This document shows positions 35,990 through 64,000 of a stretch of 64,000 nt of DNA, in pieces. The stretch's first letter is position 1, and every line of letters begins with the position of its first letter. The translations under genes and the position numbers were made by a program. The notes beneath the pieces are model-generated. The model was not told where the DNA came from. It did not search any database and was given only the letters and a program-made list of their open reading frames with translations. The stretch comes from an uncultured Opitutia bacterium (GTDB taxonomy: Bacteria; Verrucomicrobiota; Verrucomicrobiia; Opitutales; Opitutaceae): assembly GCA_903839035.1 (NCBI GenBank), contig CAIMAQ010000069.1:1-64000 (forward strand). Reading direction: 5' to 3'.

Positions 35990-36001
35990 GAAGCGGCGGA
36001 T

Positions 36002-36115: not shown

Positions 36116-36146
36116 TTCAGTGCCAGCGCACCAAACTCCCCTCTGC

Positions 36147-36557: not shown

Positions 36558-36758
36558 GGCAGGAGGAGCCGTCAGCGGTCAGCGATCACCCGTCAGCGCT
36601 GGGCCACGACCAGACTTCGCGAACGAGGATCACTCATTGGTTCACCGCTCACGAATGGATGGGACGCAGGAATTTGCCGCTGAGAGCTGATGCCCGGCCG
36701 CTGATTACCCCGATTCCCGACGCTCGACAGCCAGTGCTTTTGCCGTTTCCAAGGAGTC

Positions 36759-43838: not shown

Positions 43839-45133
43839 TGAACGCGACCGTGGGCGCGCGCCGGGTGGTCATCAGCGGGCTCGGTTTCATCTCGAGCATC
43901 GGCAACGAAACCACGGAGGTGACCCGGAGCCTGCGTGAGCTGCGGCACGGGCTAGCCTCGCATGAGTTCCTGCCCGGGCAGGATCTTCCGGTTAAAGTCG
44001 CGGGCACCATCAAGGGCTTCGACACGCGCTCAACCCACCACGCCGAATGGCACTGGCCGGCGCGCTACAGCTTCACCCGTGACCTCCTGCGCAGCCTGCC
44101 ACCGCACGGCCTGCATGCCTTCTGCGCGGTCGAGCAGCTCGTGGCCGACGCCCGGCTGACGCCGGAATTGCTGGCCGACGGTGAGACCGGCCTGTTCACC
44201 GCCTCCGCCGGCTCCCCGTTCCTGCAGCGCCACTATCTCAACATGCTGCACGAATCGGCCGGCGCCCGCATGCATCCGATGGGCGTGGTCAGCACCATCC
44301 CAGGCACGCTCAACTTCAACCTCGCCCCGCACTACCACATCAAGGGCGGGGTCTGCGGCTTCGTCTCCGCCTGCGCGTCAACGGCCCACGCCATCGGTTA
44401 CGCCAGCGACGATATCCGCCGCGGCCGGCAACAGCGCATCCTAGTGGTCGGGGCCGAGGATCTCAGCTGCGAGTCCACGTATTCGTTCCAAGGCATGCGG
44501 GCCCTTTCACGCAACCCCGATCCCGCCACGGCCTCGCGGCCCTTTGACCGCGATCGCGACGGATTTGTCGGCACCGGCGGCTCCGCCGCGCTGCTGCTCG
44601 AGGAGGCGGCCAGCGCTCAGGCCCGCGGGGCGCCCATCTACGGCGAACTGCTTGGCTGGGGCCAGGCTTCCGACGGCTACAACATGGCCATCGCCGAGCC
44701 CGACGGCCGCGGCCTAACCGAGGCCATGCTCCGCGCGCTGGTGGACGCCGGGATCACACCGGGCGACGTGGACTACATCAACGCCCATGGCACCTCGACG
44801 CCCAACGGGGACCTTTCGGAGCTTCGCGCCATCAAGTCCGTTTTCAATTCGGTGGGCGCCAGCCCGGCGATCAGCAGCACGAAGGCCCTGACCGGCCACG
44901 CGCTCTCGATGGCCTCGGCCCTGGAAACCGGTTTCTGCGCCCTCGCCCTGCGGGACGGCTTCACGCCCGGCCAGGCCCATCTCGTCAACCCCGACCCGGA
45001 ATGCGAGGGCCTACACCTGCCCCGCCACACCCTATCCATGGCCCCGGAGATCATCCTGAAAAACAGCAGCGGCTTCGGCGGCAGCAATGTTTCCCTCGTG
45101 CTGCAGCGCTGGCCCGCTGGCCGGGCCAGCTGA
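43838..45133 (+). CDS. beta-ketoacyl-ACP synthase (FabF-like)
   Basis: A 431-aa ketosynthase of the KAS II/polyketide type, joining an acyl chain with malonyl-ACP. The catalytic triad is present: Cys179 in GFVSACASTAHAIGY, His317 in INAHGTSTPNGD and His354 in STKALTGHALSMASALE. The dinucleotide-like start RRVVISGLGFISSIG and the GFGGSNVSLVL end are canonical. It is coupled to an ACP and followed by sugar-processing genes, so it is more likely to serve a special acyl chain (aryl polyene, flexirubin-like, or lipid for a glycan) than the housekeeping fatty acid cycle. Substrate chain length cannot be read from sequence. Confidence 0.92.
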   Translation: MNATVGARRVVISGLGFISSIGNETTEVTRSLRELRHGLASHEFLPGQDLPVKVAGTIKGFDTRSTHHAEWHWPARYSFTRDLLRSLPPHGLHAFCAVEQLVADARLTPELLADGETGLFTASAGSPFLQRHYLNMLHESAGARMHPMGVVSTIPGTLNFNLAPHYHIKGGVCGFVSACASTAHAIGYASDDIRRGRQQRILVVGAEDLSCESTYSFQGMRALSRNPDPATASRPFDRDRDGFVGTGGSAALLLEEAASAQARGAPIYGELLGWGQASDGYNMAIAEPDGRGLTEAMLRALVDAGITPGDVDYINAHGTSTPNGDLSELRAIKSVFNSVGASPAISSTKALTGHALSMASALETGFCALALRDGFTPGQAHLVNPDPECEGLHLPRHTLSMAPEIILKNSSGFGGSNVSLVLQRWPAGRAS

Positions 45134-49486: not shown

Positions 49487-50479
49487 ATGTCCGCCGTCCC
49501 CACCCGTCCCCCGCCGTCCTTCCGCCTGCACTCGCCGCTGCCCGCCCCGCGCGTGCGCGACCGCCTGCTCGTCATCACCCATCGCCGCGACACGCTCGGT
49601 GGCTGGCTGAGCAAACAGCAGGGGCTATTCTCGGAATTCTTCGCTGTGCTCGGCGCGCTGCGCTATGCGGAGCGCAATGGGGCCGCCGGCGTGAAAGTCG
49701 AGTTCAGCTCCGATCTCTACCGCGACCCGGCCCGCGACGCCAACTGGTGGAGCTATTTCTTCGCGCCCCTGATGTGGCTGGGCCCGCCGCGGCCGGACCC
49801 GCCCGTGGTTCGCGCCGACGGTTGGACGCGTTTCGGCCCGCACGCGTGGAACGACTCCTGGACCGCGCAGATCATTCCCGGCAACGCCGGCCGCCGGCCC
49901 TACCCGATCGACTCGTCCGCCGAAATGCACGAGGCCGCCCGGCTCACCGCGCGCCACATCCGCCCGCAACCGGCACTGCTCGCCCGGCTCGGGGAGCGCT
50001 GGACCGCGCACACCGCGCCCGGCGATTTTGTCGTGGGGCTCCACTATCGCGGCACCGACAAGATCACCGCCTATCCCTACCGCTCGCCCGACTACCGGCT
50101 CTACGCCGAACAGCTTGAGCGCGTACTAGCCCGGCACCAGCCGAAGGCTTGGCGCGTGTGCGTCGCCACGGATGAAACCGAGTTCATCGACTGGGCCGTC
50201 GGGCGCTACGGCGACCGCGTCTTCTTCCAGCCCGACGCCCCCCGCCTTTCCTCGGGTGATCCCGTGGCGCGCCGCACCGGCACACACAAGAATCTCGCCT
50301 TGCCGGGCTACCTCAAGGGCGAGACCGCCGTCCTCGACTGCCTGCTCCTGTCCCGCTGCCACCACCTGATCAAGAACCGTTCCAGCCTGTCCGACATCTC
50401 GCTCGCGTTCAACGCGGCCCTGCCGTGGACCTTCATCCTCGCCGACGGCCTGGTTTACGAGAGCGGCACCCCTGGCTGA
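49487..50479 (+). CDS. fucosyltransferase-like (NodZ/GT23-type) protein
   Basis: A 330-aa protein resembling the NodZ/alpha-1,6-fucosyltransferase superfamily. The motif DFVVGLHYRGTDKITAYPYR near residue 185 matches the GDP-binding HxRxTDK region, followed by VCVATDETEFIDWAVGRYGD and CHHLIKNRSSLSDISLAFNA, the downstream nucleotide-sugar elements. An early part FEFFAVLGALRYAERNG-like segment (FSEFFAVLGALRYAERNG) fits the first strand-helix of the fold. No membrane helix. It is the last gene of the seven-gene operon; its last 25 bases overlap the end of the convergent VTT/CDP-alcohol gene. Sugar donor and acceptor are inferred only from the family. Confidence 0.7.
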   Translation: MSAVPTRPPPSFRLHSPLPAPRVRDRLLVITHRRDTLGGWLSKQQGLFSEFFAVLGALRYAERNGAAGVKVEFSSDLYRDPARDANWWSYFFAPLMWLGPPRPDPPVVRADGWTRFGPHAWNDSWTAQIIPGNAGRRPYPIDSSAEMHEAARLTARHIRPQPALLARLGERWTAHTAPGDFVVGLHYRGTDKITAYPYRSPDYRLYAEQLERVLARHQPKAWRVCVATDETEFIDWAVGRYGDRVFFQPDAPRLSSGDPVARRTGTHKNLALPGYLKGETAVLDCLLLSRCHHLIKNRSSLSDISLAFNAALPWTFILADGLVYESGTPG

Positions 50480-52191
50480 TTCCGCCAGCGCCAGTAGCCG
50501 CCAAACTCCTGCAGGAATCCCACGACCAGGCCCACATTGCGCCCCAGCAGATAGATCGCCACGGCGCCGGCCGCCCACGGTGAAGGCAGGCTGGCGACCG
50601 CCGCGGCCACCATGGCCATCGGCGCCACCCAATCAGGCCGCGGCGCTGGGGTTCCCCGCAGGTGCGACGCAATCACCCTCCCGGTGTAATCGGCCCCATA
50701 CAAGGTGAGCGGCAACGCGATTTCCCACCAAGCCACTCCGCGCCACCGGCCCAGACCGCACACGACGATCCCGCCGAGCCCGAATCCCACGAGCTCCAAG
50801 GGCAGGCGCCCGATCCGGCGCACACAGGAGGCCGCTGTCAGCAGACTGCCCACCGCACCGGCGATCATCACCGCCTCGAAAAGCGTGAAGCCCGCGGCGC
50901 ACGGCGCCTGCCACCAGCCGGCGGCGGCGCCGGAACACCAGCTCGCGAAATACGCGATCGTCAGCAGCATTCCCTCCAGTGGCCCGATAAACCCGAAGTA
51001 AAGCTGCTTCCGCTCGCGCTCCTCCATCATCGTGGCCGCGCCCGCCAGCGTCACCGTCCACAGCAGCGGCCCGAGCAGCGGCGAATCCGCCCGACCCGCG
51101 ACCAGAAACATCACCACGACTGTTATCGAGCCGTGAAACCCATCCGTGAAATGGTCGAGGAACTCCCCCAGCGGGCTGCTCGTGCCCGTGCGACGCGAGT
51201 GCATGCCGTCCGCATGGTCGTAGATCACATAACCCGCCATCAGGATCAGATACCACGGCGCCAGCGCCCGCGCGTCGGCCGCCGTCGTCGCGAGCCAGAG
51301 CATCACCCACATGCAGCCAGACGAGCCCAGCGTCAGCAGGTTCGCGGGCACGACCGGCGGCATCCATTGCACGAACCAGCGCACAAGATACCGGCAGAAT
51401 GGCCCCACTAGGGGCGAGCGGTCCACACAGCGGTAAGTGTAGAGAGGAACTTCGGGGCGCATCAGCCCCCAGTGGAGGGATGACTCCGCCGGGTGTCGCG
51501 AAAAAAAACCGCCTCGCCCGTCACGCCTTTCCGCCGGGCAGCCGTTTTTCCGCCACAGATGAAAACCCGCCGCCGTCGCGCCGAGCACCCCCGCCCCCGT
51601 CAGCGCCGCCAGCGGGTTGCCCGCGAGCACTCCGCGGCCCACGATCACTCCGCCCACCACCCACGGCACCGTCAGGAGCCACGACACGACCAGGTAGAGG
51701 CGGAACGGCATGCCCGCCAGCGCGAGCAGATAGCACTGCAGGCACAACGGCGGGCCCGGCGTGAGCCGCACCACCAGCGCCAGCGCCACGGCGTTGTCCC
51801 GCGTCAGTTGCGGAATGCGATAACCGCGCTTTTCCAGCCACGCGGTCAACGGCGGGCGAAACACCCGCTGCGCCAGCCAGTAGGACAGCGCGATGTTCAC
51901 CGCGACCGCCGCCAGTGCCGCCGCAATCACCCCGGGCAGGGTTAATTGCGCCGCAAACGCCTCGCCCGCCGGCACCGTGAACCAGAACAACGGCGCCGGC
52001 AGCACCGCCATCGCCGTGAAAAACACCGCCGGTCCCGCCGCCCGGATCAGCCCGAGTCCCCATGTCACCGCCTCGCGGGGCGCGCTGCCGCCCGCCAGCA
52101 GCAACCCGGCGGCCGCCAGCACCACGACAACCGCCAGCCGGGTGGCCCAGGGCATTTTTCCCGGGACGACCGGCGCCGGTTTCGGTGGCAT
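50455..52191 (-). CDS. VTT (TVP38/DedA-type) - CDP-alcohol phosphotransferase fusion
   Basis: A 578-aa membrane protein joining two lipid-related domains in one uninterrupted frame. Residues 1-230 form a TVP38/VTT domain: LPAPLFWFTVPAGEAFAAQL, LVVRLTPGPPLCLQCYLLAL and FRLYLVVSWLLTVPWVVGG. After the link HPAESSLHWGLMRPEVPLY, residues 250-578 are a CDP-alcohol phosphotransferase; the signature DHADGMHSRRTGTSSPLGEF with FLDHFTD holds all the Asp/Gly residues of D-x2-DG-x2-AR-x8-G-x3-D-x3-D in shape, with Ser for Ala. VTT proteins are lipid scramblases or carriers, CDP-alcohol enzymes make phospholipid headgroups; coupling of synthesis and flipping is inferred. No stop separates the halves; an internal ATG (MRPEVPLY) could also start a shorter form. 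Confidence 0.85.
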   Translation of the reverse strand: MPPKPAPVVPGKMPWATRLAVVVVLAAAGLLLAGGSAPREAVTWGLGLIRAAGPAVFFTAMAVLPAPLFWFTVPAGEAFAAQLTLPGVIAAALAAVAVNIALSYWLAQRVFRPPLTAWLEKRGYRIPQLTRDNAVALALVVRLTPGPPLCLQCYLLALAGMPFRLYLVVSWLLTVPWVVGGVIVGRGVLAGNPLAALTGAGVLGATAAGFHLWRKNGCPAERRDGRGGFFSRHPAESSLHWGLMRPEVPLYTYRCVDRSPLVGPFCRYLVRWFVQWMPPVVPANLLTLGSSGCMWVMLWLATTAADARALAPWYLILMAGYVIYDHADGMHSRRTGTSSPLGEFLDHFTDGFHGSITVVVMFLVAGRADSPLLGPLLWTVTLAGAATMMEERERKQLYFGFIGPLEGMLLTIAYFASWCSGAAAGWWQAPCAAGFTLFEAVMIAGAVGSLLTAASCVRRIGRLPLELVGFGLGGIVVCGLGRWRGVAWWEIALPLTLYGADYTGRVIASHLRGTPAPRPDWVAPMAMVAAAVASLPSPWAAGAVAIYLLGRNVGLVVGFLQEFGGYWRWRNQPGVPLS

Positions 52192-52428: not shown

Positions 52429-53349
52429 ATGCCCGCCCCCTCTCCCGAAATCGACGCGGTCTACACCTGGGTGGATGGCACCCGCCCCGATTACCTGGAA
52501 CAGCTCGGGCGCCACGCCCGGGAGCCGCGCGACCTGAACCCCGAGCGTTACCGCGACGCCTACGACTGCCTGCGCCACAGCCTCCGCTCGCTCGAACTGC
52601 ACGCGCCTTGGGTACGCTGGGTCTATCTCGTCACCTGCCGGCCGCAGGTTCCCGCCTGGCTCCGTCGCGACCACCCGCGCCTCCGGATCGTGCACCACGA
52701 TGAGATCATGCCGCCCACGGTCGCCCAGCCCACGTTCAACAGCAACGTCATCGAGTGCTTCCTGCACCGGCTGCCGGGCATTTCCCGGCATTTTGTCTAT
52801 TTCAACGACGACTACTTTCTCGGCGCCGCCGTCTCGCCGGAGGATTTCCTCACCGCCGACGGCCGCATCCGGGTCTTCGGCACCCTCGTCGGCGAACGCG
52901 CCCGCTGGCTCGTGCGCGAGCGGCAGCCGGTCTACTTCGGCCTTGTCGAGCACGGGCCCATCCTCGTCGACTGCGACGAGTGGGCGGAGATGCCGCGGTT
53001 CTTCGCGGACGAGTGGGCGGACTTCCTGCAGCACCGCTTCCGCCAGCCCGGCGACTTCCGGCCCGAGCGGCTCTACCGCTGGCACCTGCTCACGCACCGC
53101 CGCGCCCGCACGCAGCTCGTGCCGTTCTGGCAATACCTGCGCCACTCCGTTTTCCACAAGATCACGCCCGGACCCGCCGCGCGCCAGCGCGTCCGGCTCG
53201 ACCGCATCGCCCGCCGTCGGCCGCGCTTCCTCTGCCTGAATGACGACCTCGGGTTCCCCGCCGATCCCGCCGTGGTCGCGGAGGTCCGCGCCTTCCTCGC
53301 CCGGATGTTTCCTCAGCCTTCGTCGTTCGAGATCGGCGCGCCCCCGTAA
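52429..53349 (+). CDS. Stealth-family capsular sugar-phosphotransferase
   Basis: A 306-aa Stealth protein, the family of hexose-1-phosphotransferases that build phosphodiester-linked capsules and resemble GlcNAc-1-phosphotransferase. CR1 is EIDAVYTWVDGTRPDYLEQL at the N-terminus; CR2 includes YDCLRHSLRSLELHAPWVRW and IECFLHRLPGISRHFVYFND with DDYFLG; later comes FWQYLRHSVFHKITPGPAAR (CR3-like) and PRFLCLNDDLGFPADP (CR4). The start MPAPSPEIDAV is fixed by CR1, which lies at the end of the family N-terminus. It probably adds sugar-1-phosphate groups to a surface glycan. Its 3' end overlaps the convergent GT4 gene by 37 bases, which is unusually long. Confidence 0.92.
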   Translation: MPAPSPEIDAVYTWVDGTRPDYLEQLGRHAREPRDLNPERYRDAYDCLRHSLRSLELHAPWVRWVYLVTCRPQVPAWLRRDHPRLRIVHHDEIMPPTVAQPTFNSNVIECFLHRLPGISRHFVYFNDDYFLGAAVSPEDFLTADGRIRVFGTLVGERARWLVRERQPVYFGLVEHGPILVDCDEWAEMPRFFADEWADFLQHRFRQPGDFRPERLYRWHLLTHRRARTQLVPFWQYLRHSVFHKITPGPAARQRVRLDRIARRRPRFLCLNDDLGFPADPAVVAEVRAFLARMFPQPSSFEIGAPP

Positions 53350-54392
53350 ATCCCGATCAGCCGCCCCACCCCGCGCTCCCAGTCGTAACGCGCCGCCACC
53401 TCGCGGGCCCGCCGCGCACACCGCGCATGGCCCGCAGTATCGCCCGCCAGCCGCCGGATCGCCGACGCCAGCGCCGCCGCGTCGCCCGGCGCCACCAACC
53501 CGCCCACGCCCGCGCCGTCGAGCCAGTCGGCGTAACCGCGGATCGCCGACGCCACCACCGGCACGCCGTGCGCCAGCGCTTCGAGCGCAACCAGGCCGAA
53601 ACTTTCCCCGCCGAGCGAGGGCACTGCACACACGTCCGCCGTCGCATAGGCTGCAGCCAACTCCGCCGCGCTCACCGTCCCGCGTTTCGTCGCCGGCCCC
53701 ACGGCGTCGAGGACAAAGGCGCCCGGCGCCTCCGCCTCCAGCCGGCGCATCGCCTCGTGCAGCACCGCAAAGCCCTTGCGCGGTTCATCGGCGCGCCCGA
53801 CGAAGAGCACCCGCGCCGGCCGGCCGGCCGGCCGCTCCGCCCGGCCGGCGCCAGCCGGCGGCAGGCGCACGCCGTTCGGCACGACCGCGAAGGCTGCGGG
53901 GTGCCAGCGGGTCGCGAACTCCCGCGCCGGAACCGATACCGCCACCCGCGCGTCAAGCCGCGCATTCACCCACCGGCACCACGGCCAGGCCCAGAGGTAG
54001 CCGCGGCTGGTTTCCGAATACGTGTGAAAGGTGCCCACCCTCCGCGCCGCCCCCGCATGGAGCAGGGCAAAACTGTTCAACGTCGGCAAAAACGGCTCCT
54101 GCACGTGGATCACCTCCGGCCGGAATTCGCGGATCAGCCGCCGCACTTCGCCGCCTATGCCCAGGTCCAGGGTCACCCGGCTGCGGGCCCCGTTCAGGGC
54201 CCCCACCCACACGCGGCCGATGCGGTGGATGCGTTCGTTGTTTTCCAAGGCCACCTGCGCCGAGGCCGGTCCCGCCAGCCGCACGTCGAACCCGCGCCGC
54301 AACAGCGTGGCCAGCAGGTCGAGTACATGGCGGTTCACGCCGCCGGGCACGGCCAGATCGTAGGGAGTCGTAAGCAGGACGCGCATGATCAC
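53313..54392 (-). CDS. GT4-family glycosyltransferase (PimA-like)
   Basis: A 359-aa retaining GT-B glycosyltransferase. The N-terminus MRVLLTTPYDLAVPGGVNRH contains the GGVxxH loop seen in PimA and other GT4 mannosyltransferases; the C-terminal nucleotide-binding half shows RVLFVGRADEPRKGFAVLHE, AVPSLGGESFGLVALEALAH (ExxGxxxxEA) and VPVVASAIRGYADWLDGAG. The order PEVIHVQEPFLPTLNSFALL and GTFHTYSE in between is also PimA-like. In PimA this fold mannosylates phosphatidylinositol, but here the acceptor is unknown. Two in-frame starts (MIMRV or MRV, two codons apart) are equivalent. It is divergent from tolC and overlaps the Stealth gene at its end. Confidence 0.88.
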   Translation of the reverse strand: MIMRVLLTTPYDLAVPGGVNRHVLDLLATLLRRGFDVRLAGPASAQVALENNERIHRIGRVWVGALNGARSRVTLDLGIGGEVRRLIREFRPEVIHVQEPFLPTLNSFALLHAGAARRVGTFHTYSETSRGYLWAWPWCRWVNARLDARVAVSVPAREFATRWHPAAFAVVPNGVRLPPAGAGRAERPAGRPARVLFVGRADEPRKGFAVLHEAMRRLEAEAPGAFVLDAVGPATKRGTVSAAELAAAYATADVCAVPSLGGESFGLVALEALAHGVPVVASAIRGYADWLDGAGVGGLVAPGDAAALASAIRRLAGDTAGHARCARRAREVAARYDWERGVGRLIGIYGGAPISNDEG

Positions 54393-54656: not shown

Positions 54657-56189
54657 GTGCCCTCGCTCCTCCGCCTGCTCCCCACCACTGCTTTTATCCT
54701 GATTGTCCCAATCGCCGTAGCCGCCGAACCCGCGCCCGCCGCGGCCACCGAGACCCTTTCCCTGCGCGACGCCCTGGGCGCCACGCTCGAGCACAGCCCG
54801 GCGTTGCGCGTGCAGAAATCGGTTATCGAGCAGAAGTCTGGCATCATGGAGCAGGCCAGCGGCGCCTTCGACTGGACCGGCACCGCCGGGGCCAGTTTCA
54901 CCGGGGACCGCACGCCCGTGCCCGGCCTGCCCGGCACCGAACCGGTCAATCACACAAACAGCTCCACCTACACCGCGGGACTCCAACATCTCTTCCGCAA
55001 CGGCGTCTCCGTGCGCCCCTCGGTCAACGTCGGCGTGGACGAAAACCTCTCCCCAGCCAGCCCGACCTACGGGGTCTCGCAGTTGAGCGTGGAGATCGTC
55101 GTCCCGCTGCTGCGCGGACTGGGGCGCGACAGCACCGGGGCCGGCGAAGCCGCGGCCCGCGGCGACATCGAGGTGGCCCGGCTGCTTTACCAGCACGCCC
55201 TCTCCTCGCAGGCCTTCGCCACCGCCGCCAACTACTGGAACAGTCGCCGCGCCGATGACACCCTCACGGTACAGCTCGATGTGGAGCAGGCCGCCGCGCG
55301 GCTCGTCGAATCCACCAAGGTCTTGGTAAAAAGCGGCGTCTTCCCGCCCGCCTACCTCCTGCAGGCCGAGGCCAATCTTCGCGACAAGCGCACCGTGCGC
55401 ATCAACGCCGAGCTCGATGCCCACAATGCGCGTTTCACGCTCGGCCAGTCGCTCGGCCTCGCGCCTGAGGCCATCGGCTCCACCCCGGCCCCCGCGGATC
55501 CGTTCCCGCACCTGCCGGACGCCATCGCCCCTTTTTCGCCCGAGACCCGCAACACTCTTATCGTGCGCGCCCTGCATCAGCGGGCCGATTACCGCGCCTC
55601 CCAGCAGAGCCTCATCCCGCTCAACATCCTCGCCCGGCAGGCCGAACTCGACCTGAAGCCCGAGGTGAACCTTTCGGCGTCCACCGGCTACAAGGGCCTG
55701 AGCGCCGGCAGCTCGCCCCTCTCGCCCTTGGACAAGCGCCTCACCGGGCTCAACACCGAGGTGGGCGTGTCCGTCGCCTGGCCCTTCCGCAACAGCTACC
55801 AACACGGGCTTCTGCGAGAACGCCGCGCCAACCAGGACCAGACCGAGGCTCAGTCCGTGCAACTCGCCCAGGGCGTCGCCGGCGACGTGCTCCTCGCGCT
55901 CGAGCAGCTGCGCCTGCGCGCCGACACCGTGCGCTCGGCGAGCGAAACCGTCCAAATCGCCAAGCGCGCCGTCGCCGCCCAATACGACCAGCTCAAGACC
56001 GGCGACGGCACCATCCTCGACGTGATCACCCTCGAAAACCTCTACTCCTCCGCGCGCATCAGCTACATCGGCGCCCAGGCCTCGTATGCGATCTCCGTCG
56101 CCCAGCTGCGCTACGCCTTGGGCGACGTTTTCAACGGCAGCGCCTCCACCCTCACCTTGGCCGATCTCACCCTCGTGCCCACGCTCTGA
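54657..56189 (+). CDS. TolC-like outer-membrane efflux protein
   Basis: A 510-aa outer-membrane factor forming the exit channel of type I exporters. The GTG start gives a normal signal peptide (SLLRLLPTTAFILIVPIAVA); an ATG 22 codons upstream would place 20 polar residues in front. The mature protein has the two TolC halves: LSLRDALGATLEHSPALRVQ at the start of the first repeat and VSVAWPFRNSYQHGLLRERR at the second, with coiled-coil stretches (EVARLLYQHALSSQAFATAA, ALEQLRLRADTVRSASETVQ) and LKTGDGTILDVITLENLYSS near the end. It is the first gene of a five-gene export operon with DevB, two DevC and DevA, so it is probably the matching outer channel. Confidence 0.9.
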   Translation: MPSLLRLLPTTAFILIVPIAVAAEPAPAAATETLSLRDALGATLEHSPALRVQKSVIEQKSGIMEQASGAFDWTGTAGASFTGDRTPVPGLPGTEPVNHTNSSTYTAGLQHLFRNGVSVRPSVNVGVDENLSPASPTYGVSQLSVEIVVPLLRGLGRDSTGAGEAAARGDIEVARLLYQHALSSQAFATAANYWNSRRADDTLTVQLDVEQAAARLVESTKVLVKSGVFPPAYLLQAEANLRDKRTVRINAELDAHNARFTLGQSLGLAPEAIGSTPAPADPFPHLPDAIAPFSPETRNTLIVRALHQRADYRASQQSLIPLNILARQAELDLKPEVNLSASTGYKGLSAGSSPLSPLDKRLTGLNTEVGVSVAWPFRNSYQHGLLRERRANQDQTEAQSVQLAQGVAGDVLLALEQLRLRADTVRSASETVQIAKRAVAAQYDQLKTGDGTILDVITLENLYSSARISYIGAQASYAISVAQLRYALGDVFNGSASTLTLADLTLVPTL

Positions 56190-56217
56190 TCGCTCTCCGT
56201 CGAACATTTTCTGCCCG

Positions 56218-57141
56218 ATGAAATCCCTCCTCCTCCCCCGCCTCGCCCTGCTCGGCTCCCTGCTGCTGCCCGTGCTCGCTTCCGCCGCCACCGTGTCGGC
56301 CCTCGGGCGGGTGCTGCCCCGCTCGGGCATCGTCGACCTCTACGGCGTCGCCGGCGATACCCTCCAGGCCATCAACGTTAGCGAGGGCGATTGGGTGCAG
56401 GCCGGCCAGTCGCTGGCCACCCTCAGCTCCACCGCCGGCGCCCGCTCGCGCCTGCAGCTGGCCGAGACCGATCTCGCCACCACCCGCCTCAGCACCGCCC
56501 GCGACCTTGAGATCGCCCAGGCACAGGTAGCCACCAGCGAACTGGAGCTGAAATACGCCGCCAACCGCTACGACCGCATCATGGCCGCCGGCAACAGTGA
56601 GTTCATCTCCCCCGACCAGATCGAGACGCGCACGCTCGGCAAGCAGCAGGCCGAGCTGAAGGTCGCCCAGGTGAAACAGGACCTGGTTCGCGCCCAGACC
56701 GACGCCCGCCACAGCCTCCAGGCGGCCGAGAACGCGGTCGAGGCCGCCCGCTCCGCGCTCGCCGCCGCCGAGGTGCAGGCCCCCATCGCCGCCCGCGTCC
56801 TCAAGATCCGCGGCCGCGTCGGCGCCCAGCTCAACGGCCGCAGCGAACTCATGAAGCTCGGCGACACCCGGGGCATGGACGTCGTGGCCGAGGTCTACGA
56901 GTCCGAGGTCCTCAAGGTGAAGACCGGCCAGAAAGCCGTGATCTCCTCTGCCGCCCTGCCCGCCAAGCTGACCGGCGTCGTCACCGGGGTGAGCCCCATC
57001 GCCTTCCGCAACACGATCGAGAGCATGGACCCGAACGCCAGCACGCAGGCCCGCGTGGTGGAGGTGACGATCCGCATGGATGCGGTCGAGCCCCTCGACC
57101 GGCTCGTCTTCCTCCAGGTCGACGTTGCCATCGAAATCTGA
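56218..57141 (+). CDS. devB: DevB-like periplasmic adaptor (HlyD family)
   Basis: A 307-aa membrane-fusion protein. A signal peptide (LALLGSLLLPVLASA) leads to a lipoyl half (GRVLPRSGIVDLYGVAGDTL, VSEGDWVQAGQSLATLSS), then a long coiled-coil hairpin (about residues 80-190, QLAETDLATTRLSTARDLEI, QAAENAVEAARSALAAAEVQ) and a closing lipoyl/beta part (APIAARVLKIRGRVGAQLNG, MDVVAEVYESEVLKVKTGQ). DevB proteins connect DevC/DevA to TolC; in cyanobacteria the set exports heterocyst glycolipids. The ATG lies 28 bases after the TolC-like stop. The long gene family match is clear, but the exported cargo here is unknown. Confidence 0.88.
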   Translation: MKSLLLPRLALLGSLLLPVLASAATVSALGRVLPRSGIVDLYGVAGDTLQAINVSEGDWVQAGQSLATLSSTAGARSRLQLAETDLATTRLSTARDLEIAQAQVATSELELKYAANRYDRIMAAGNSEFISPDQIETRTLGKQQAELKVAQVKQDLVRAQTDARHSLQAAENAVEAARSALAAAEVQAPIAARVLKIRGRVGAQLNGRSELMKLGDTRGMDVVAEVYESEVLKVKTGQKAVISSAALPAKLTGVVTGVSPIAFRNTIESMDPNASTQARVVEVTIRMDAVEPLDRLVFLQVDVAIEI

Positions 57142-57171
57142 GCGCCATCCCGGCCGTCAGCCTGTTTCACA

Positions 57172-58302
57172 ATGCGGACCCCCCTGGCATGGCTGAACAC
57201 CATCCAAAACCGGAAGCGTAGCGCCACCGCGGTGGGCGGCATCTGCTTCGCCATCCTGCTCATCTTCATGCAGGCGGGCTTCCTCGGGGCGGCGAAGCTC
57301 AACGCCTCGCTCGCCTACCGCGAGATGCGCTTCGACCTCATGATCGTCTCGCGGGGCTACCTGATGCTCACGCGCAGCGAGACGATCGACATCTACCGGA
57401 TCCTGCAGGCGCGCAACCTCCCCGGCGTCGCCGCCGTGCACGCGCTGCGGCTCGACGGCGGCCGCTGGAGCAACCGCACGAGCGGCGGCTCCACCAGCTG
57501 CTTCGTCTTCGGGCTGGCTCCCGGCGAATCCTATTTCCGCAACGAGACCCTCAACGCCACCGCGACCCGGCTGCAGACGCGGCAGACCGTGCTCGTCGAC
57601 CGGCTCGCGCGCTCCAGCTACGGCCCCTGGTCGGTCGGCGGCACCGCCGTCATCAACGGGCAGGAGCTCTCCATCCAAGGGGACTATGCCCTCGGCATGG
57701 GGCTCCTGGCGGACGGCAGCGCCATCGTCAGCCACGACACCTACCTGCGCCTGTATCACATCCCGCGGCTCGACCGCGTGGAATTCGGCCTGGTGGAGCT
57801 CGCCCCGGGCGCCGATCTCGCGCAGGTCGCGGCCGCCCTGCGGACCGCCCTGCCGGGCGACGTCATGGTCCTGACCCGGCAGGAGTTGATCGACCGCGAG
57901 GAGAACTACTTCGTGAACGTGAAACCCGTCGGGATCATGTTCCAGGTCGGCATGTTCGTCGCCTTCGTCGTCGGCGCGGTGATCCTCTATCAGATCCTGG
58001 CGAGTGAGATCACCAACCGGCTGCGGGAATTCGCCACCCTCAAGGCCATGGGCTACACCGAGCGCTACATCTACGGCATCGGCATCAAGCAGGGCCTGAT
58101 CTTCTCGTTCCTCGGCTACTTCCCCTCGCTCCTGCTGTCCATCGGGCTTTACCGGCTGCTGCGCGCCCTGTCCTCCTTCCCGGTCTACATGGACTGGACG
58201 CGCGCGGTGTTCGTCTTCTGTCTCTCCCTCGCAATGTGCGCCATCGCGGCGGTCTTCGCCCTGGGCAAGATCAAGCGCGCCGACCCGGCCGACCTCTTCT
58301 GA
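57172..58302 (+). CDS. devC: DevC-type ABC permease (first copy)
   Basis: A 376-aa FtsX/MacB-type permease of the DevC group. The start LAWLNTIQNRKRSATAVGGI and CFAILLIFMQAGFLGAAKLN is typical of DevC (first helix with conserved MQ-G). A large periplasmic part (about residues 50-250) follows, then helices MFVAFVVGAVILYQILASEI, LIFSFLGYFPSLLLSIGLYR and AVFVFCLSLAMCAIAAVFAL. The C-terminus ALGKIKRADPADLF has the RADPADLF end that is shared with the second permease (TTDPADLF), suggesting gene duplication. Two DevC copies would form a heterodimer with one DevA ATPase. It is 30 bases downstream of devB. Confidence 0.88.
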   Translation: MRTPLAWLNTIQNRKRSATAVGGICFAILLIFMQAGFLGAAKLNASLAYREMRFDLMIVSRGYLMLTRSETIDIYRILQARNLPGVAAVHALRLDGGRWSNRTSGGSTSCFVFGLAPGESYFRNETLNATATRLQTRQTVLVDRLARSSYGPWSVGGTAVINGQELSIQGDYALGMGLLADGSAIVSHDTYLRLYHIPRLDRVEFGLVELAPGADLAQVAAALRTALPGDVMVLTRQELIDREENYFVNVKPVGIMFQVGMFVAFVVGAVILYQILASEITNRLREFATLKAMGYTERYIYGIGIKQGLIFSFLGYFPSLLLSIGLYRLLRALSSFPVYMDWTRAVFVFCLSLAMCAIAAVFALGKIKRADPADLF

Positions 58303-58305
58303 ACG

Positions 58306-59445
58306 ATGCGCCTGCTCCGCCCCCTGCCCATTGCCTGGCGCATGCTGATCGACAAGCCGTCGCGCTTCGTGCTGTCCGGCCTCGCGGTCGCCTTCTCCGT
58401 CGTGATCATGTTCATGGAGCTCGGCTTCTTCAACGGCTCCAACGACAGCGCGGCCAACCTGCCGCCGCATTTTGCCTGCGACCTCATCCTGTCGCACCGG
58501 GAGAAGAACCACCTCAAGACCGGCGAGGAATTCCCCTTCGCCTGGCTCCTCCTCGCCCGCGACGCGCCGGGCGTGGCCGCGGCCGTGCCCCTCTACAGTG
58601 GCGCCGACTACTGGTGGAATCCGCAGGACAGTTCGCGCAACCGCGTCTTCCTCCTCGGGGTCAATCTCCCGGACCCGATGTTCGCCCCCGAGGTCGTCGC
58701 CGCCCACCGGGCCGCCCTGGAACTCCCCGGCACCGTGATCTACGACCGCCTTTCGCGCCACGAACTCGGCGAGATCACCGTCGGCACCACCACCACACTT
58801 GGCCTGATGGGCGTCAAGGTGGTCGGGCTCTTCGAGCTCGGGCCCAACTTCGCCTACGAGGGGCACATGCTCACCAGCGCCGACAACTTCTGCAAACTCA
58901 ACGGCCAGCCGACGGACGTCGTGGACCTCGGCCTCATCCGCGTAAAGCCCGGCGCCGACGTGCAGGCCGTGCGCGCCGCCCTGATCAGGCACCTGCCGCC
59001 CCAGGCCCTGCTGCTCACCCCCGCGGAGATCCAGCAGCGGGAGATCACCTACACCACGCAGCACAGCCCGGCCGGCATCGTCTTTGGCCTGGGGCTCGTC
59101 GTCGGCTTTGCGATCGGCGTCATCATCTGCTACCAGATCCTCTTCAACGAGGTGAACGACAACCTGCCCCAGTTCGCCACCTTGAAGGCCATGGGGCACT
59201 CGCCGCGCTTCATCTCCGGCATCGTCTTCCACGAGGCGATGCTGATGGCCGTCATCGGCTTCATCCCCGGCGCCCTCCTCGGCAGCGGGATCTACCATCT
59301 GCTGGAAAGCACCACCCAGATCCAGATGTTCCTCACGCCGGGCCGGCTGCTCCTCATCTTTGTCCTCACGGGCGGCATGTGCCTCATCGCCGGCCGCCTC
59401 GCCATCCGGAAAGTCCACACCACCGATCCCGCCGACCTGTTCTGA
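58306..59445 (+). CDS. devC: DevC-type ABC permease (second copy)
   Basis: A 379-aa permease of the same family as the preceding gene, from which it is three bases away. It starts with LPIAWRMLIDKPSRFVLSGL and VAFSVVIMFMELGFFNGSND; the periplasmic part is of similar size; the last helices are VFGLGLVVGFAIGVIICYQI, MLMAVIGFIPGALLGSGIYH and LLLIFVLTGGMCLIAGRLAI. It ends with TTDPADLF, like the first copy. Together they probably make an asymmetric membrane channel. Sequence identity between the copies is low over the periplasmic part, so specialised roles are likely. Other DevBCA loci usually carry only one devC gene, to my knowledge. Confidence 0.87.
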   Translation: MRLLRPLPIAWRMLIDKPSRFVLSGLAVAFSVVIMFMELGFFNGSNDSAANLPPHFACDLILSHREKNHLKTGEEFPFAWLLLARDAPGVAAAVPLYSGADYWWNPQDSSRNRVFLLGVNLPDPMFAPEVVAAHRAALELPGTVIYDRLSRHELGEITVGTTTTLGLMGVKVVGLFELGPNFAYEGHMLTSADNFCKLNGQPTDVVDLGLIRVKPGADVQAVRAALIRHLPPQALLLTPAEIQQREITYTTQHSPAGIVFGLGLVVGFAIGVIICYQILFNEVNDNLPQFATLKAMGHSPRFISGIVFHEAMLMAVIGFIPGALLGSGIYHLLESTTQIQMFLTPGRLLLIFVLTGGMCLIAGRLAIRKVHTTDPADLF

Positions 59446-59471
59446 GGCCCCACCCGCTTCCTTTTACCGCC

Positions 59472-60578
59472 ATGAGCCTTCCTCCCTCCCGCGAAGCCGC
59501 GATCCAAATCACCGGCCTCAACCACTTCTTTGGCAAGGGCGACGCCCAAAAGCAGGCCCTCTACGATAACAACCTCACGGTCAACCGCAGCGAGATCATC
59601 ATCATGACCGGCCCCTCCGGGTCCGGCAAGACCACGCTCCTCACTCTGATCGGCGCCCTGCGCTCGGTGCAGCAGGGCAGCATCAAGCTCGCCGGCACCG
59701 AGCTCGCCGGCCTGAACCCTCGGCAGCAGGTGGAGATGCGCCGCAACCTCGGCTTCATCTTCCAGGCCCACAACCTCCTCGACGGCCTGACCGCCCGCCA
59801 GAACGTCCGCATGGCCATCGAGCTCACCGCCACGCCCCGTAGCGACTACGACAAGGTCGCCGACGCCATGCTGGGTGCGGTCGGCCTGTCCGATCGCGCT
59901 ACCTACAAGCCGCGCAACCTCTCCGGCGGTCAGCGCCAGCGCGTCGCCATCGCCCGGGCCCTCGTCAACAAGCCCCGCCTCATCCTCGCGGACGAGCCCA
60001 CCGCCGCCCTCGACAAGGACTCCGGCGCCAACGTCGTCCACCTGCTCCGCGAGCTCGCCACCCACCACGGCACCACGGTCATGATCGTCACCCACGACAG
60101 CCGCATCATCAGCGTGGCCGACCGGATCGTGAACATGGTCGACGGCCACATCGTGTCCGACGTGCGCATCAAGGAGACAATGGTGATCTGCGCCATCCTC
60201 CGGAAATGCTCCGTGTTCAAGGAAATGTCCCCGTCGGACCTGACCGACATTGCGCAGAAGATGACCGAGGAACATTTTGCCCCGGGCCAGAGCATCATCC
60301 GCATCGGCGACATCGGCGACAAGTTCTACGTCATCGCCCGCGGCTCGACCGACATCACCATCGAGTCGACCGGCACCAGCCGTGCCGTGGCCAAGCTCCG
60401 CGAAGGGGATTTCTTCGGCGAGGTCGCCCTCCTGCGCGACCAGCCTCGCAACGCCACGGTCACCACCCGCGAGCCGGTCGTCGTCTACTCGCTCTCCAAG
60501 GAGAACTTCCTCGCCGCCATGAAGAGCCACAAGACTTTCGAGGACCAGATGTCGCACATGCTTTTCACCCGCGCCTGA
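59472..60578 (+). CDS. devA: DevA-like ABC ATPase fused to a cyclic-nucleotide-binding domain
   Basis: A 368-aa protein. Residues 10-230 are a MacB/DevA-type ATPase: Walker A IMTGPSGSGKTTLLTLIGAL, Q-loop GFIFQAHNLLDGLTARQN, signature NLSGGQRQRVAIARALVNKP, Walker B RLILADEPTAALDKDSG and the switch His in IVTHDSR. From about residue 235 a CNBD/CRP-like domain follows (FKEMSPSDLTDIAQKMTEEH), with the phosphate-binding cassette GDFFGEVALLRDQPRNATVT intact, including Arg. A cyclic nucleotide, perhaps cAMP, cGMP or c-di-GMP-like, could thus control export directly. The CNBD is not part of ordinary DevA. It is the last gene of the operon; its end overlaps the convergent PAP2 gene by 14 bases. Confidence 0.88.
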   Translation: MSLPPSREAAIQITGLNHFFGKGDAQKQALYDNNLTVNRSEIIIMTGPSGSGKTTLLTLIGALRSVQQGSIKLAGTELAGLNPRQQVEMRRNLGFIFQAHNLLDGLTARQNVRMAIELTATPRSDYDKVADAMLGAVGLSDRATYKPRNLSGGQRQRVAIARALVNKPRLILADEPTAALDKDSGANVVHLLRELATHHGTTVMIVTHDSRIISVADRIVNMVDGHIVSDVRIKETMVICAILRKCSVFKEMSPSDLTDIAQKMTEEHFAPGQSIIRIGDIGDKFYVIARGSTDITIESTGTSRAVAKLREGDFFGEVALLRDQPRNATVTTREPVVVYSLSKENFLAAMKSHKTFEDQMSHMLFTRA

Positions 60579-61503
60579 GCGCCTCCGCCGTCCGGCGCCG
60601 GGCCCACCACCGGACGCCCACCCACACGCCGAGTGCAAAGACCATGCCCACCAGCCCGTCGATCACGTAATGGTGGTTCAGGTAGACGGAGGCAAAAAAC
60701 ACCAGGAGCCAAAACCCGGTGGTGAAGCCGCGCAGCGAGCGGAACTGCCAGGCATAGAGCACCGCGAGGAACGTCTGTCCCACGTGCAGGGAAGGGATGG
60801 CCCCAAAGACATTCGCGTTGCGCCCATAATAGCCGGCGAACCAGCGTACGCCCAGCAGCGCGTCGAACCGCGCTGCGCCCGCCGCCTCCGGCGCCGCCGA
60901 GAGTATCGCGGGCCCCAGGCCATAGTGGTCCACATACCAAGGTGGCGCCGCCGGATAAAGGAGGTAGGTCGCATAGGCGGCGAGATTGAGCCCGAGCATG
61001 GCCCACATCACGAGGTCGGCGTCGCGGATCTTCGCCTTGAAAAGCCACCAGCCGGCGACGCCAAAAAAGACCGGGATGAAAAGCAGGTACGCCGCTCCGC
61101 AGGCCAGGTCCATGGCCGCGCGCGTGCGGGTTTGCAGCCATGCCGCCGGCGTCACAAGGCGGCCGCCTTCCGCGAGGCCGAACCAGTCGAGTTCCCCTTG
61201 GTGAGGCCCCGCCACATGCACTGTCGCCCGCAGCGCGTCCGCCCAGTAGCGCTGGGCGTCGTAGACCGCCCCGACGATCAAGATGGGCAGCAGAAAAAGA
61301 AAAAACAGCCGCACCCGCGGCCCGGCATAATAACCCGCCAGCACCACGCCGGCGAGCAGGCCGTGGTCCGGACGCAGTCCGCCGAGCCCGGCATGCACCG
61401 CCAGAAATCCCAGCGCCCCCAGGACCGGCAGCCAGCGGGCCGCCGCGCCAAGTCCGTCCCACCAGTCGCCCCACTCCCGCCGGATCGTGGCCCCGGCCGT
61501 CAT
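60565..61503 (-). CDS. PAP2-family, inositol phosphorylceramide synthase (AUR1)-like enzyme
   Basis: A 312-aa polytopic membrane protein with about six helices. The lipid phosphatase/phosphotransferase motifs are C2 GAIPSLHVGQTFLAVLYAW and C3 VYLNHHYVIDGLVGMVFALG, with the two catalytic His residues and the Asp in place. LLFIPVFFGVAGWW, YLLYPAAPPWYVDHYG and the spacing between motifs fit the AUR1/Ipt1 group of phosphoinositol or phospho-alcohol transferases rather than simple PAP2 phosphatases. In such enzymes a headgroup is moved from phosphatidyl-alcohol to ceramide or diacylglycerol. The start MTAGATIRREW overlaps the stop of the upstream GNAT gene by one base, so it belongs to the lipid operon. 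Confidence 0.82.
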   Translation of the reverse strand: MTAGATIRREWGDWWDGLGAAARWLPVLGALGFLAVHAGLGGLRPDHGLLAGVVLAGYYAGPRVRLFFLFLLPILIVGAVYDAQRYWADALRATVHVAGPHQGELDWFGLAEGGRLVTPAAWLQTRTRAAMDLACGAAYLLFIPVFFGVAGWWLFKAKIRDADLVMWAMLGLNLAAYATYLLYPAAPPWYVDHYGLGPAILSAAPEAAGAARFDALLGVRWFAGYYGRNANVFGAIPSLHVGQTFLAVLYAWQFRSLRGFTTGFWLLVFFASVYLNHHYVIDGLVGMVFALGVWVGVRWWARRRTAEALRRG

Positions 61504-62630
61504 CAGAGTGCCTTCTCGTAAAGCCGCAGAGTCTGCACGCGCTTTCCCCCAATCCGCTCGATCAGGGCGATGGTCTCGTGGTTGTCCTCCAGGATCCAGG
61601 AGAACTCCATCTGCCGCAGATGCGGTGCGTTCACCAGCAACTGGTGATAGCGGCGGATGAACAGCACAGGAAGGCCCAGCCGACGCGCCTCCTTCCTCAC
61701 CCCCAGCAAAAAGAGCCGCACGCCGGTCACCCGCTTGCGCTGCATAAGGAGCGACCACCAGCCCAGCGGCCACAGCCGGCCGCCGATGCGCTGGATGATC
61801 TCGTTCATGTCGGGGATCGCCACCATCATGCCCAGCGGCTCCCCGTCGCGTTCCGCGAGCAAAATCAATTCGGGGTCGATGAACAGCCGGTAGGCCTGGG
61901 AATATTTCAGGAATTCCGCCTGCGTGATCGGCTGCGCCCCCCAGTTGTCCTGCCAGGCTTCCGCAAAGATGCGCGCCATGCGCCCGGCCTCGGCGGGCAG
62001 GTCGCACAGTTTGATTGGGCGCACCGTCACCCCCTGCGCCACGCGGTCCGCCACCGCGCACATGCGGTCGAACGGTTCCTGGCGGAAATCAGCGCGGGTC
62101 AGCCGGAAGACAAACAGGTCCTTCGCCTTCCCGTAATCCGCCGCCTCCAGCAGCCGGCGGTAATACGGCGGCGTGTAACCCATGCCCGCCATCGGCGCAT
62201 GCTCGAAGCCGTCCAATAGCACGCCAGCCTCGTCCTGCACGCTGAAATTGGCCGGCCCGCGCACCACCTTGAGCCCTGCCCCCCGCAGCCAGGCTTCCGC
62301 CGCCCGCAGCAGCGCGGCCGCCGTGGCCGGATCGTCCTCACACTCGAAAAAGCCGAAGAACCCCGCCCCATCCGCATGCGCGGCGAGGTGCCGCCGGTTG
62401 TGCAGGGCCGCGATCCGCCCCACGGGCTCAGCCCCGCGGTAGGCGAGGTAGCACTCGCCGGTGGAGTGCTTAAAATAATCACCCTTTTCCGGATCCAGCT
62501 GCGGCCGCACATCCGCCAGAAGCGGCGGCACCCAGGCCGGCAGCCCGCGGTAGAATCGCGCCGGCAGCCGCAAAAAAACCTCCCGCGCGCGCCGGTCTCG
62601 CACCGGCACAATCCGCACCACCTCGCTCAT
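61503..62630 (-). CDS. GNAT-type acyltransferase, candidate bacterial ceramide synthase
   Basis: A 375-aa protein of the acyl-CoA N-acyltransferase fold. VRIVPVRDRRAREVFLRLPA begins the protein; GECYLAYRGAEPVGRIAALH, ILLAERDGEPLGMMVAIPDM and FSWILEDNHETIALIERIGG are GNAT-like strand/acetyl-CoA-loop elements. The start MSEVVRIV is used since its ATG overlaps the stop of the oxoamine synthase (ATGA, four bases); an ATG six codons upstream lies inside that gene. Ceramide synthases of Caulobacter and relatives are GNAT-like and of similar size. Lying between an oxoamine synthase and an AUR1-like enzyme, this protein could N-acylate the long-chain base. Acylation of another amine is possible. Confidence 0.7.
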   Translation of the reverse strand: MSEVVRIVPVRDRRAREVFLRLPARFYRGLPAWVPPLLADVRPQLDPEKGDYFKHSTGECYLAYRGAEPVGRIAALHNRRHLAAHADGAGFFGFFECEDDPATAAALLRAAEAWLRGAGLKVVRGPANFSVQDEAGVLLDGFEHAPMAGMGYTPPYYRRLLEAADYGKAKDLFVFRLTRADFRQEPFDRMCAVADRVAQGVTVRPIKLCDLPAEAGRMARIFAEAWQDNWGAQPITQAEFLKYSQAYRLFIDPELILLAERDGEPLGMMVAIPDMNEIIQRIGGRLWPLGWWSLLMQRKRVTGVRLFLLGVRKEARRLGLPVLFIRRYHQLLVNAPHLRQMEFSWILEDNHETIALIERIGGKRVQTLRLYEKAL

Positions 62631-64000
62631 GCGCGGGCCTCCCGCCACTGCGCCCGGATCTCCGCCAGCGCGTCAGCCGTCTCCCGCAACTGCGCTTCCG
62701 TGTGCCCCGCTGTCATGAAGAACCGCAGGCGCGCCTTTCCCTCCTCCACCGCCGGATGGAAGATGGGCTGCACGTTGATGCCCCGCTCGCCGAGGGCCTG
62801 GCTCATGTGCAGGGCCAGCTCGGACGAGCCCGTCAGGAAGGGCACGACGGCCGAGTGCCGGCTCAGGCCGGTGTCGAGGCCGCGCTCCCGGCACAGGTCG
62901 CGGAAAAATTCGCTGCGCGCTTGCAGGCGCCGCGGCAGCTCCGGCCGCTGCCCCAGCAGGCGCAGCGCCGCCAGCGCCGCCGCCGCATTGGCCGGCGGCA
63001 GGCCCACGCTGTAAACGAAGCCGGGCAGCGTGTAGCGCAGATAGTCGATTAGCGCCGCCTCGCCCGCAACGTAGCCGCCGCAGCTGGCCAGCGCTTTCGA
63101 GAGCGTGCCCATCCACAAATCCACCGCCGCCCGCGGCACCCCGAAATGCTCCCCGATCCCGCGGCCCGTCGCCCCGAGCACGCCGAGCGAGTGCGCCTCG
63201 TCCACCAGCAGCAGCGCGTCGTGCCGCTGTTTCAGCGCGATCACCTCGTCGAGGGGCGCCAGGTCGCCGTCCATGCTGTAGACACCCTCGACCGCGACCA
63301 GGGCCCGGCGTGCCTTCGGCCGCTCGACCTCCAGCAGGCGGGCGAGCGCCGCGACGTCATTGTGCGGAAACACCAGCCGGCGCGCACCCGACAGCCGCGC
63401 CCCGCTCACGATGCAGTCGTGCGCGAGGCTGTCGTGGATCACGATATCCTCCGGTCCGAACAGATGGCTGATCAGCGTGACGTTGGTCGCGTGTCCGCTC
63501 ACCAGCGTGAGCGCGTCGTCACAACCGAGGAAACCGGCGACCGCGCGCTCCAGTTCCCCGTGCAGCGGCCGCTCGCCCGAGGCGACCCGACTCGCCGAGG
63601 CCGACGTGCCGTAGCGCTGCACCGCGTCGGCCGACGCCCGGTTGACCGCCGGATCGCCCGCGAGGCCGAGGTAATTGTAGGAGGAAAAATTGACGAACTC
63701 ACGGCCGCCGATGCGCGTGATCGCGCCCGCCACGCCCTCGTGCGCATGGAAATACGGCATCGTGAAGCCGGACGCGGCGAGCGACGCCTTGCGGGCCGCG
63801 AGCGCCTGCACTTCCGGCCAGGCCGCCACCGCGGGCTTGGGCTCGGCGACCGCGCCGATCACCTGCGCCTCCACGCCGCGCCATTGCACCACCAGGACAC
63901 CTTGCGCATCCCGCAAATCGAAATCCCCCAGCAGCCGGTCCGGCGTGGCGCCGGTCAGCCGGCCCGTGCAGGCCAGGTCCCCGGCCCGCGGCCAGGGCGC
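62627..64000 (-). CDS. PKS dehydratase-like domain fused to alpha-oxoamine synthase (partial, 5' end outside window)
   Basis: 457 residues of a larger protein; the frame is open to the window edge. The first visible part (ACTGRLTGATPDRLLGDFDL, RDAQGVLVVQWRGVEAQVIG) resembles the end of a polyketide-synthase dehydratase domain. Next is a complete alpha-oxoamine synthase domain (fold type I PLP enzymes such as serine palmitoyltransferase): FVNFSSYNYLGLAGDPAVNR, HDSLAHDCIVSGARLSGA, LLLVDEAHSLGVLGATGRGI and the PLP-lysine segment MGTLSKALASCGGYVAGEAA. Such a domain would release an acyl chain from a PKS by decarboxylative condensation with an amino acid. An internal TTG at 63916 or later starts could make a stand-alone enzyme. 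Co-transcribed with the GNAT and PAP2 genes. Confidence 0.8.
   Translation of the reverse strand, partial: APWPRAGDLACTGRLTGATPDRLLGDFDLRDAQGVLVVQWRGVEAQVIGAVAEPKPAVAAWPEVQALAARKASLAASGFTMPYFHAHEGVAGAITRIGGREFVNFSSYNYLGLAGDPAVNRASADAVQRYGTSASASRVASGERPLHGELERAVAGFLGCDDALTLVSGHATNVTLISHLFGPEDIVIHDSLAHDCIVSGARLSGARRLVFPHNDVAALARLLEVERPKARRALVAVEGVYSMDGDLAPLDEVIALKQRHDALLLVDEAHSLGVLGATGRGIGEHFGVPRAAVDLWMGTLSKALASCGGYVAGEAALIDYLRYTLPGFVYSVGLPPANAAAALAALRLLGQRPELPRRLQARSEFFRDLCRERGLDTGLSRHSAVVPFLTGSSELALHMSQALGERGINVQPIFHPAVEEGKARLRFFMTAGHTEAQLRETADALAEIRAQWREARA

Follow-up and report, generated by a model that had tools for sequence, protein, structure and literature searches.

It is not known by what means sphingolipids made by bacteria reach the outer membrane from the inner one (PMC11324152), and no flippase or transporter of bacterial sphingolipids has been identified (PMC11087976). 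Whether genes for such a lipid and for its exporter may stand side by side is the question raised by a locus from an uncultured Opitutia bacterium of the family Opitutaceae. The locus lies at the end of a 64,000-nucleotide stretch of DNA, hereafter the window, which covers positions 1-64000 of contig CAIMAQ010000069.1 (C69) in a 3.39-Mb draft genome (G000; handles of this form also denote other genomes and contigs); C69 continues past the window to 67595. Two convergent units meet here. One encodes a fusion of polyketide synthase (PKS) domains with an alpha-oxoamine synthase (AOS), a GNAT-fold protein and a PAP2-type membrane protein, and the other a five-gene exporter of the TolC-DevB-DevC-DevC-DevA type. 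All genes named in a first-pass annotation of the window were found where it had placed them, with the tails of the PAP2 and DevA genes overlapping, and its proposal that both units share one lipid product is favoured by conservation of the pump with the lipid genes. In our judgement the locus probably directs synthesis of a PKS-extended, inositol-phosphoryl-ceramide-like lipid, likely to be glycosylated, that would be exported by the Dev-type pump.

The fusion protein and its oxoamine synthase clade

Within the window the fusion gene had been read as a PKS-dehydratase-like/oxoamine synthase fusion, and the adjoining sequence was expected to reveal whether ketosynthase (KS), acyltransferase (AT) and acyl carrier protein (ACP) modules precede the oxoamine synthase. 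The complete gene encodes a single polypeptide with KS (residues 3-455), ACP (~602-669), dehydratase (DH; ~680-915) and AOS (~925-1310) domains, bearing out the fusion; KS and ACP are thus present in the same polypeptide and AT is absent. A domain scan of the protein detected these four domains only, with no AT, ketoreductase (KR) or enoylreductase (ER). The sequence LPPSPLATRRFW at residue 559 presumably resembles the usual post-AT linker motif. Across seven homologues the KS residues C201/H336/H374, the ACP serine S632, the DH residues H696/D830 and the pyridoxal phosphate (PLP) lysine K1161 are invariant, and a predicted model of the DH region (pLDDT 72, pTM 0.75) best matches PKS dehydratases, with Z scores up to 19.6. 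In a sample of 388 genomes of the phylum, no full fusion was found outside Opitutaceae.

The AOS domain is 56-59% identical to AOS enzymes of Caballeronia, Paraburkholderia and Pseudomonas plasmids, and the plasmid relatives in Caballeronia and Pseudomonas adjoin a large PKS gene. In a maximum-likelihood tree, in which SgaB of strain MYb115 itself was represented by a PKS-AOS pair from a Pseudomonas plasmid, the domain falls in a monophyletic SgaB/RkpG clade (100/100) outside serine palmitoyltransferase (SPT), KBL and BioF; the same clade holds S. meliloti RkpG and PKS-fused AOS domains from Planktothrix and Streptomyces. This placement rules out a plain SPT or BioF/KBL identity, the outcome that the first-pass annotation had set against its own proposal, and assigns the AOS to a PKS-linked clade. 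PfSgaB is a proven serine palmitoyltransferase and PfSgaC a KDSR homologue, and the product of the PfSga cluster, reported in 2025 for Pseudomonas, is C24-C28 sphinganines (PMC12134224). The amino acid used by the fused AOS is, by homology, most likely serine. The divergent gene beyond the window encodes a short-chain dehydrogenase/reductase (SDR), kept at 66-91% identity in relatives, putatively KDSR-like by its position and SDR family.

The fusion and GNAT genes overlap by ATGA and the GNAT and PAP2 genes by TGATG; the three therefore probably form one operon. A FabF-like ketosynthase gene lies ~10 kb from the cluster, and in G139 its homologue (54%) is found near that genome's AOS gene, together with the gene for a small ACP.

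Predicted ceramide and headgroup genes

The GNAT protein, previously flagged as placed like a ceramide synthase, is a homologue of bacterial ceramide synthases with predicted N-acyltransferase activity. It is 32.6% identical to E. coli YghO over 99% of the query (E 2e-40), and its full-length matches at 33-38% comprise YghO and GNAT proteins beside SPT-like genes, the Roseomonas, Rubrobacter and Streptomyces proteins among them sitting in loci with such genes. No PDB match was obtained by profile or single-sequence search, and a predicted structure of the protein reached only pLDDT 53 and was set aside. YghO is listed as an orthologue of CC_1154 (PMC9386255), the N-acyltransferase required for ceramide formation in Caulobacter (PMC9386255, PMC11324152). 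The AUR1-like character suggested earlier for the PAP2 protein stands: its sole PDB matches are to AUR1 inositol-phosphorylceramide synthase (5e-15), and the H-H-D catalytic motif is kept (PSLH and HHYxxD) within the conserved GAIPSLHVG...LNHHYVIDG.

C69 ends in the same 141 nt with which contig C60 begins, so the two contigs very probably adjoin; in relatives the same gene order is found within single contigs. On C60 lie a CDP-alcohol transferase gene, a LicD-family gene and an inositol-3-phosphate synthase gene, the first two of which adjoin the SDR gene in six relatives. The nearest NCBIfam models of the CDP-alcohol transferase are archaetidylinositol-phosphate, phosphatidylinositol (PI)-phosphate and BT1523 synthases, all matched below cut-off. 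The inositol-phosphate synthase at the same spot beside these genes belongs to one or the other of two dissimilar types: G000, G037, G130, G041, G075 and G136 have the first, and G044 and, judged by homology, G115 have the second. In Bacteroides, phosphoinositol dihydroceramide formation requires the AUR1 homologue BT_1522, whose gene is clustered with those of BT_1523 and of BT_1526, the inositol-phosphate synthase (PMC9246714). The phospho-headgroup foreseen in the first reading can thus be given a more specific form, since PI-phosphate-synthase-like and inositol-phosphate-synthase genes adjoin the cluster and point to phosphoinositol as the probable headgroup.

A GT4 glycosyltransferase gene was found on the cluster contig in eight of the nine cluster genomes searched, with orthologues at 64-90% identity. 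Its apparent loss in G130 and G115 was rejected when it was found ~4.7 kb further out. Near this gene in the window are genes for a second CDP-alcohol phosphotransferase, a VTT/DedA-like membrane protein and a Stealth sugar-phosphate transferase, and orthologues lie close to several relatives' clusters.

Between GT4 and TolC, G130 and G115 carry phosphonate genes: a phosphoenolpyruvate (PEP) mutase-NTP transferase fusion, phosphonopyruvate decarboxylase and 2-aminoethylphosphonate transaminase, each of which exceeds its NCBIfam cut-off in G130, together with a second NTP transferase and PhyH. Homologues of PepM, NTP transferase and PhyH lie near the G753 and G139 clusters. Aminoethylphosphonate synthesis genes (including a PhnW-like gene) and a PhyH dioxygenase gene are linked to the clusters of four relatives, the check in some of them covering only part of the set; G044 has only a 36-residue PhyH remnant, between DevA and PAP2. 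The gene content points to a putative aminoethylphosphonate variant of the lipid, and headgroup modules (inositol phosphate, aminoethylphosphonate) may be exchangeable.

Table 1. Features of the locus and related regions; positions are on C69 unless another contig or locus is named.
Feature	Position	Strand	Match or remark
TolC-family outer-membrane channel	54591 (or GTG 54657)-56189	+	PF02321 3e-30
DevB-family adaptor	56218-57141	+	TIGR02971 169.4 bits, cut-off 129
DevC permease 1	57172-58302	+	TIGR01185 4.5e-78, 262.9 bits, cut-off 290.35
DevC permease 2	58306-59445	+	TIGR01185 6e-70, 236.1 bits, cut-off 290.35
DevA ATPase with C-terminal cyclic-nucleotide-binding domain	59472-60578	+	TIGR02982 323.7 bits, cut-off 295.8
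PAP2_3 membrane protein, 312 aa, AUR1/phosphoinositol-dihydroceramide-synthase-like	60565-61503	-	PF14378 75.8 bits
GNAT-fold protein, 375 aa, YghO/CC_1154 homologue	61503-62630	-	PF00583
KS-ACP-DH-AOS fusion, 1316 aa	62627-66577 (in window 62627-64000)	-	PF00109/PF02801, PF00550, PF14765, PF00155
Putatively KDSR-like SDR, outside window	66718-67548	+	divergent from fusion gene, 140 nt away
CDP-alcohol transferase	C60:91-819	+	NCBIfam matches below cut-off
LicD-family protein	C60:~821-1468	+	
Inositol-3-phosphate synthase	C60:1452-2564	-	convergent with CDP-alcohol transferase and LicD genes
GT4 glycosyltransferase	53313-54392	-	PF13692/PF13439; weak MshA-like NCBIfam match
Stealth sugar-phosphate transferase	52468-53349	+	
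VTT/DedA-like membrane protein	51424-52062	-	
Second CDP-alcohol phosphotransferase	50455-51408	-	
FabF-like ketosynthase	43853-45133		
Second AOS of G000	G000:C68 ~4141-5229	+	nearest SPT models, NF047600 below cut-off
Aminoethylphosphonate genes	L088 (G130:C4:9001-16400) 2569-7192; L089; L097 3796-7243, 18113-18835; G139 C23 ~30910-36852		
Insertion in G136	G136:C2 (L057 16052-20000, L063 1-7000)		
Decayed cluster in G126	G126:C381 (L058 10297-12993)		

The exporter and its conservation with the lipid genes

All five genes of the exporter were confirmed, and DevA and DevB pass the cut-offs of the NCBIfam heterocyst families. DevA carries a cyclic-nucleotide (cNMP)-binding domain at residues 267-353 (PF00027 4e-22), which retains an FGE...PRNATV motif; apart from G139, the relatives' clusters in which DevA was read have the domain at 62-89% identity. 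The motif suggests that DevA may be regulated by a cyclic nucleotide.

In the seven genomes first found, the order and orientation SDR / fusion-GNAT-PAP2 / DevA-DevC-DevC-DevB-TolC is kept, with fusion proteins 60-85% identical, and the 3' ends of the PAP2 and DevA genes share 14 nt in G000, G037, G115 and G075. Further fusion genes occur in G753, G716 (split over two contigs) and G755, where cluster and DevC are on different contigs, and G139 has a split version of the cluster with a divergent pump. In G136 a complete KS-AT-DH-ER-KR-ACP PKS and a separate AOS take the place of the fusion, and SDR, GNAT, PAP2, inositol genes, GT4 and pump are still kept. An 11-kb insertion with an integrase, between PAP2 and DevA, leaves both units on one contig; judged by eye, it holds genes for a Fic-like and a sigma-factor-like protein, along with a nearly identical repeat and a tyrosine recombinase that resembles an integron integrase.

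The cluster was found in 13 of 252 genomes of the family and is intact in 12 of these; two of the cluster genomes, G075 and G041, are near-complete. In the decayed one, G126, an SDR homologue is present and the KS frame is broken by several stops; no AOS was found on the cluster contig and no DevC in the genome, a 91% complete draft. Full-length DevC occurs in 17 of the 252 genomes, namely in all 12 with an intact cluster and in 5 of the 239 without any (Fisher p 8e-16, counting G126 as a cluster genome and uncorrected for phylogeny); this value overstates the case because related genomes are not independent. Those searches listed eleven further members of the genus to which the window belongs, and none of these has either the cluster or DevC. 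The recurrence of the gene order in relatives at 60-90% identity, together with the co-occurrence of DevC across the 252 genomes, indicates more than a chance arrangement. Exporter and lipid genes are conserved together, contrary to the outcome that would have spoken against the first-pass proposal.

Several findings weigh against a dedicated ceramide pathway and exporter. Both DevC matches, full length as they are, stay under the TIGR01185 equivalog cut-off. The PAP2 protein has a single NCBIfam match, to NF052609 (5.9e-48), at 163.8 bits against a cut-off of 480, and is therefore described as working like AUR1 or PI-dihydroceramide synthase, not filed as a member. An SPT-like AOS is encoded on contig C68, so the cluster need not be the genome's only sphingoid route; an AOS similar to this one was matched in most genomes of the family. 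DevB and DevC are replaced in G130, where DevC is 53-56% and DevB 66% identical to those of G000 and the other genes 78-91%, and G115 shares both this replaced type and the phosphonate module; the idea that permeases follow the headgroup was not supported, as DevC identity is 93-94% between G753, which has the phosphonate module, and G044, whose stretch read showed no such module. Five genomes have DevC without the cluster, and in the one inspected, G006, a DevA-cNMP pump, with no AOS or GNAT gene in the 20 kb read, adjoins a GT4 and a sulfatase-fold gene.

These last two findings, and the fact that the units are convergent and not co-transcribed, would fit an arrangement of mere neighbours, in which the lipid is made as proposed and the Dev pump has a different cargo, for example a glycan or a second lipid. 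We consider this unlikely, given the pump in every intact cluster, the lack of any further full-length DevC in the nine cluster genomes of a 150-genome sample, the persistence of both units on one contig in G136 despite the insertion, and the missing DevC of the decayed G126. Still less probable is that the lipid anchors a surface polysaccharide, as is presumed for the rkp/wcb PKS-AOS loci, with the pump secondary: the nearest SgaB/RkpG relatives do lie in capsule loci of Caballeronia, Pseudomonas and S. meliloti, and GT4 and Stealth genes flank the window's cluster, whereas genes for a capsule ABC exporter, chain length or Kdo are missing from the conserved block, which instead retains inositol genes and genes for a ceramide synthase homologue and an AUR1-like enzyme. 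It is very improbable that the product is a small secreted metabolite, an aminoketone or sphinganine analogue, GNAT then acting as acetyltransferase and PAP2 as phosphatase, even though PKS-AOS enzymes also make fumonisin-type compounds (PMC7711896) and the distribution is patchy, since the GNAT belongs to the ceramide-synthase family, the PAP2 is of inositol-phosphorylceramide-synthase type and the PI-phosphate-synthase-like and inositol-phosphate-synthase genes are fixed neighbours.

Proposed pathway and comparison with known systems

For the proposed ceramide-type lipid and its export, the reactions, product and cargo set out here are predicted from observed gene content, homology, active-site conservation, gene order and co-occurrence. 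The fusion KS would elongate an acyl chain on the built-in ACP and the DH would dehydrate it; because the fusion has no AT, KR or ER, malonyl loading and ketoreduction would be needed in trans. The fused AOS would then free the chain by PLP-dependent decarboxylative condensation with the amino acid, giving a 3-keto sphingoid base, the SDR would reduce the 3-ketone, and the GNAT protein, of the bacterial ceramide synthase (bCerS)/YghO family, would N-acylate the base to a ceramide; in Caulobacter, acylation has been proposed to precede reduction (PMC11087976). Inositol-3-phosphate synthase and the CDP-alcohol transferase would provide phosphatidylinositol(-phosphate), the AUR1-like PAP2 protein would transfer phosphoinositol to the ceramide, and GT4 and LicD may decorate it. 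Finally, DevA(cNMP)-DevC-DevC-DevB-TolC would move the lipid to the outer membrane or beyond.

Because the fusion keeps a DH without an ER, a 4,5-unsaturated base is predicted, an ER or KR in trans being possible. A bolder and only tentative version holds that the fusion, after one last round of KS extension and DH dehydration on its own ACP, hands a trans-2-enoyl chain directly to the AOS, so that the 4,5-double bond would be set before serine condensation, with no desaturase, and that a glycosylated inositol-phosphoryl-ceramide would reach the outer membrane through a cyclic-nucleotide-gated Dev pump. If true, this would constitute a second, plant- or fungus-like route to complex sphingolipids together with a dedicated bacterial sphingolipid exporter. 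With a pump fixed to ceramide genes, the question of sphingolipid export becomes testable by one gene deletion. Verrucomicrobiota would be added to Pseudomonas as makers of PKS-derived sphingolipids, through an enzyme of new architecture; the phosphoinositol headgroup module is eukaryote-like, as in plants and fungi.

Judged by homology, the locus is a new combination of known parts (SgaABC, bCerS, a BT_1522-type synthase and DevBCA) with an AT-, KR- and ER-less fusion, a phosphoinositol module, a cNMP-binding DevA and a predicted dedicated exporter; neither the combination nor the fusion enzyme was found described in the literature searched, which was largely non-subscription. With PfSgaABC of Pseudomonas fluorescens MYb115 (PMC12134224) and rkpA-rkpG-rkpH/wcb it has in common an AOS from one clade that is supplied by a PKS, and a putatively KDSR-like SDR. 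In those systems PKS and AOS are separate proteins, the PKS relatives read being KS-AT-DH-ER-KR-ACP, whereas the Opitutaceae cluster has the single KS-ACP-DH-AOS polypeptide and adds the ceramide synthase homologue, phosphoinositol genes and Dev pump. The Caulobacter/E. coli BL21 ceramide pathway (spt, acpR, aasR, cerR, CC_1154/yghO) shares the GNAT-type ceramide N-acyltransferase homologue; the Opitutaceae cluster differs in its non-canonical-SPT AOS, built-in ACP and putatively KDSR-type SDR, and no AasR or Lpt-like genes were seen adjoining it. As in the Bacteroides BT_1522/1523/1525/1526 cluster (PMC9246714), an AUR1-like PAP2, a PI-phosphate-synthase-like CDP-alcohol transferase and an inositol-phosphate synthase are clustered; in the Opitutaceae block they are joined to the PKS-AOS, ceramide synthase homologue and exporter, LicD is present, and no PgpA-like phosphatase was seen. 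The Anabaena DevBCA-TolC(HgdD) heterocyst glycolipid exporter (PMC6161253) likewise consists of DevB, DevC, DevA and TolC, and a PKS-type lipid cargo is known for it and predicted for the Opitutaceae pump, which differs in having two DevC genes, a DevA with a cyclic-nucleotide-binding domain and a probable sphingolipid cargo.

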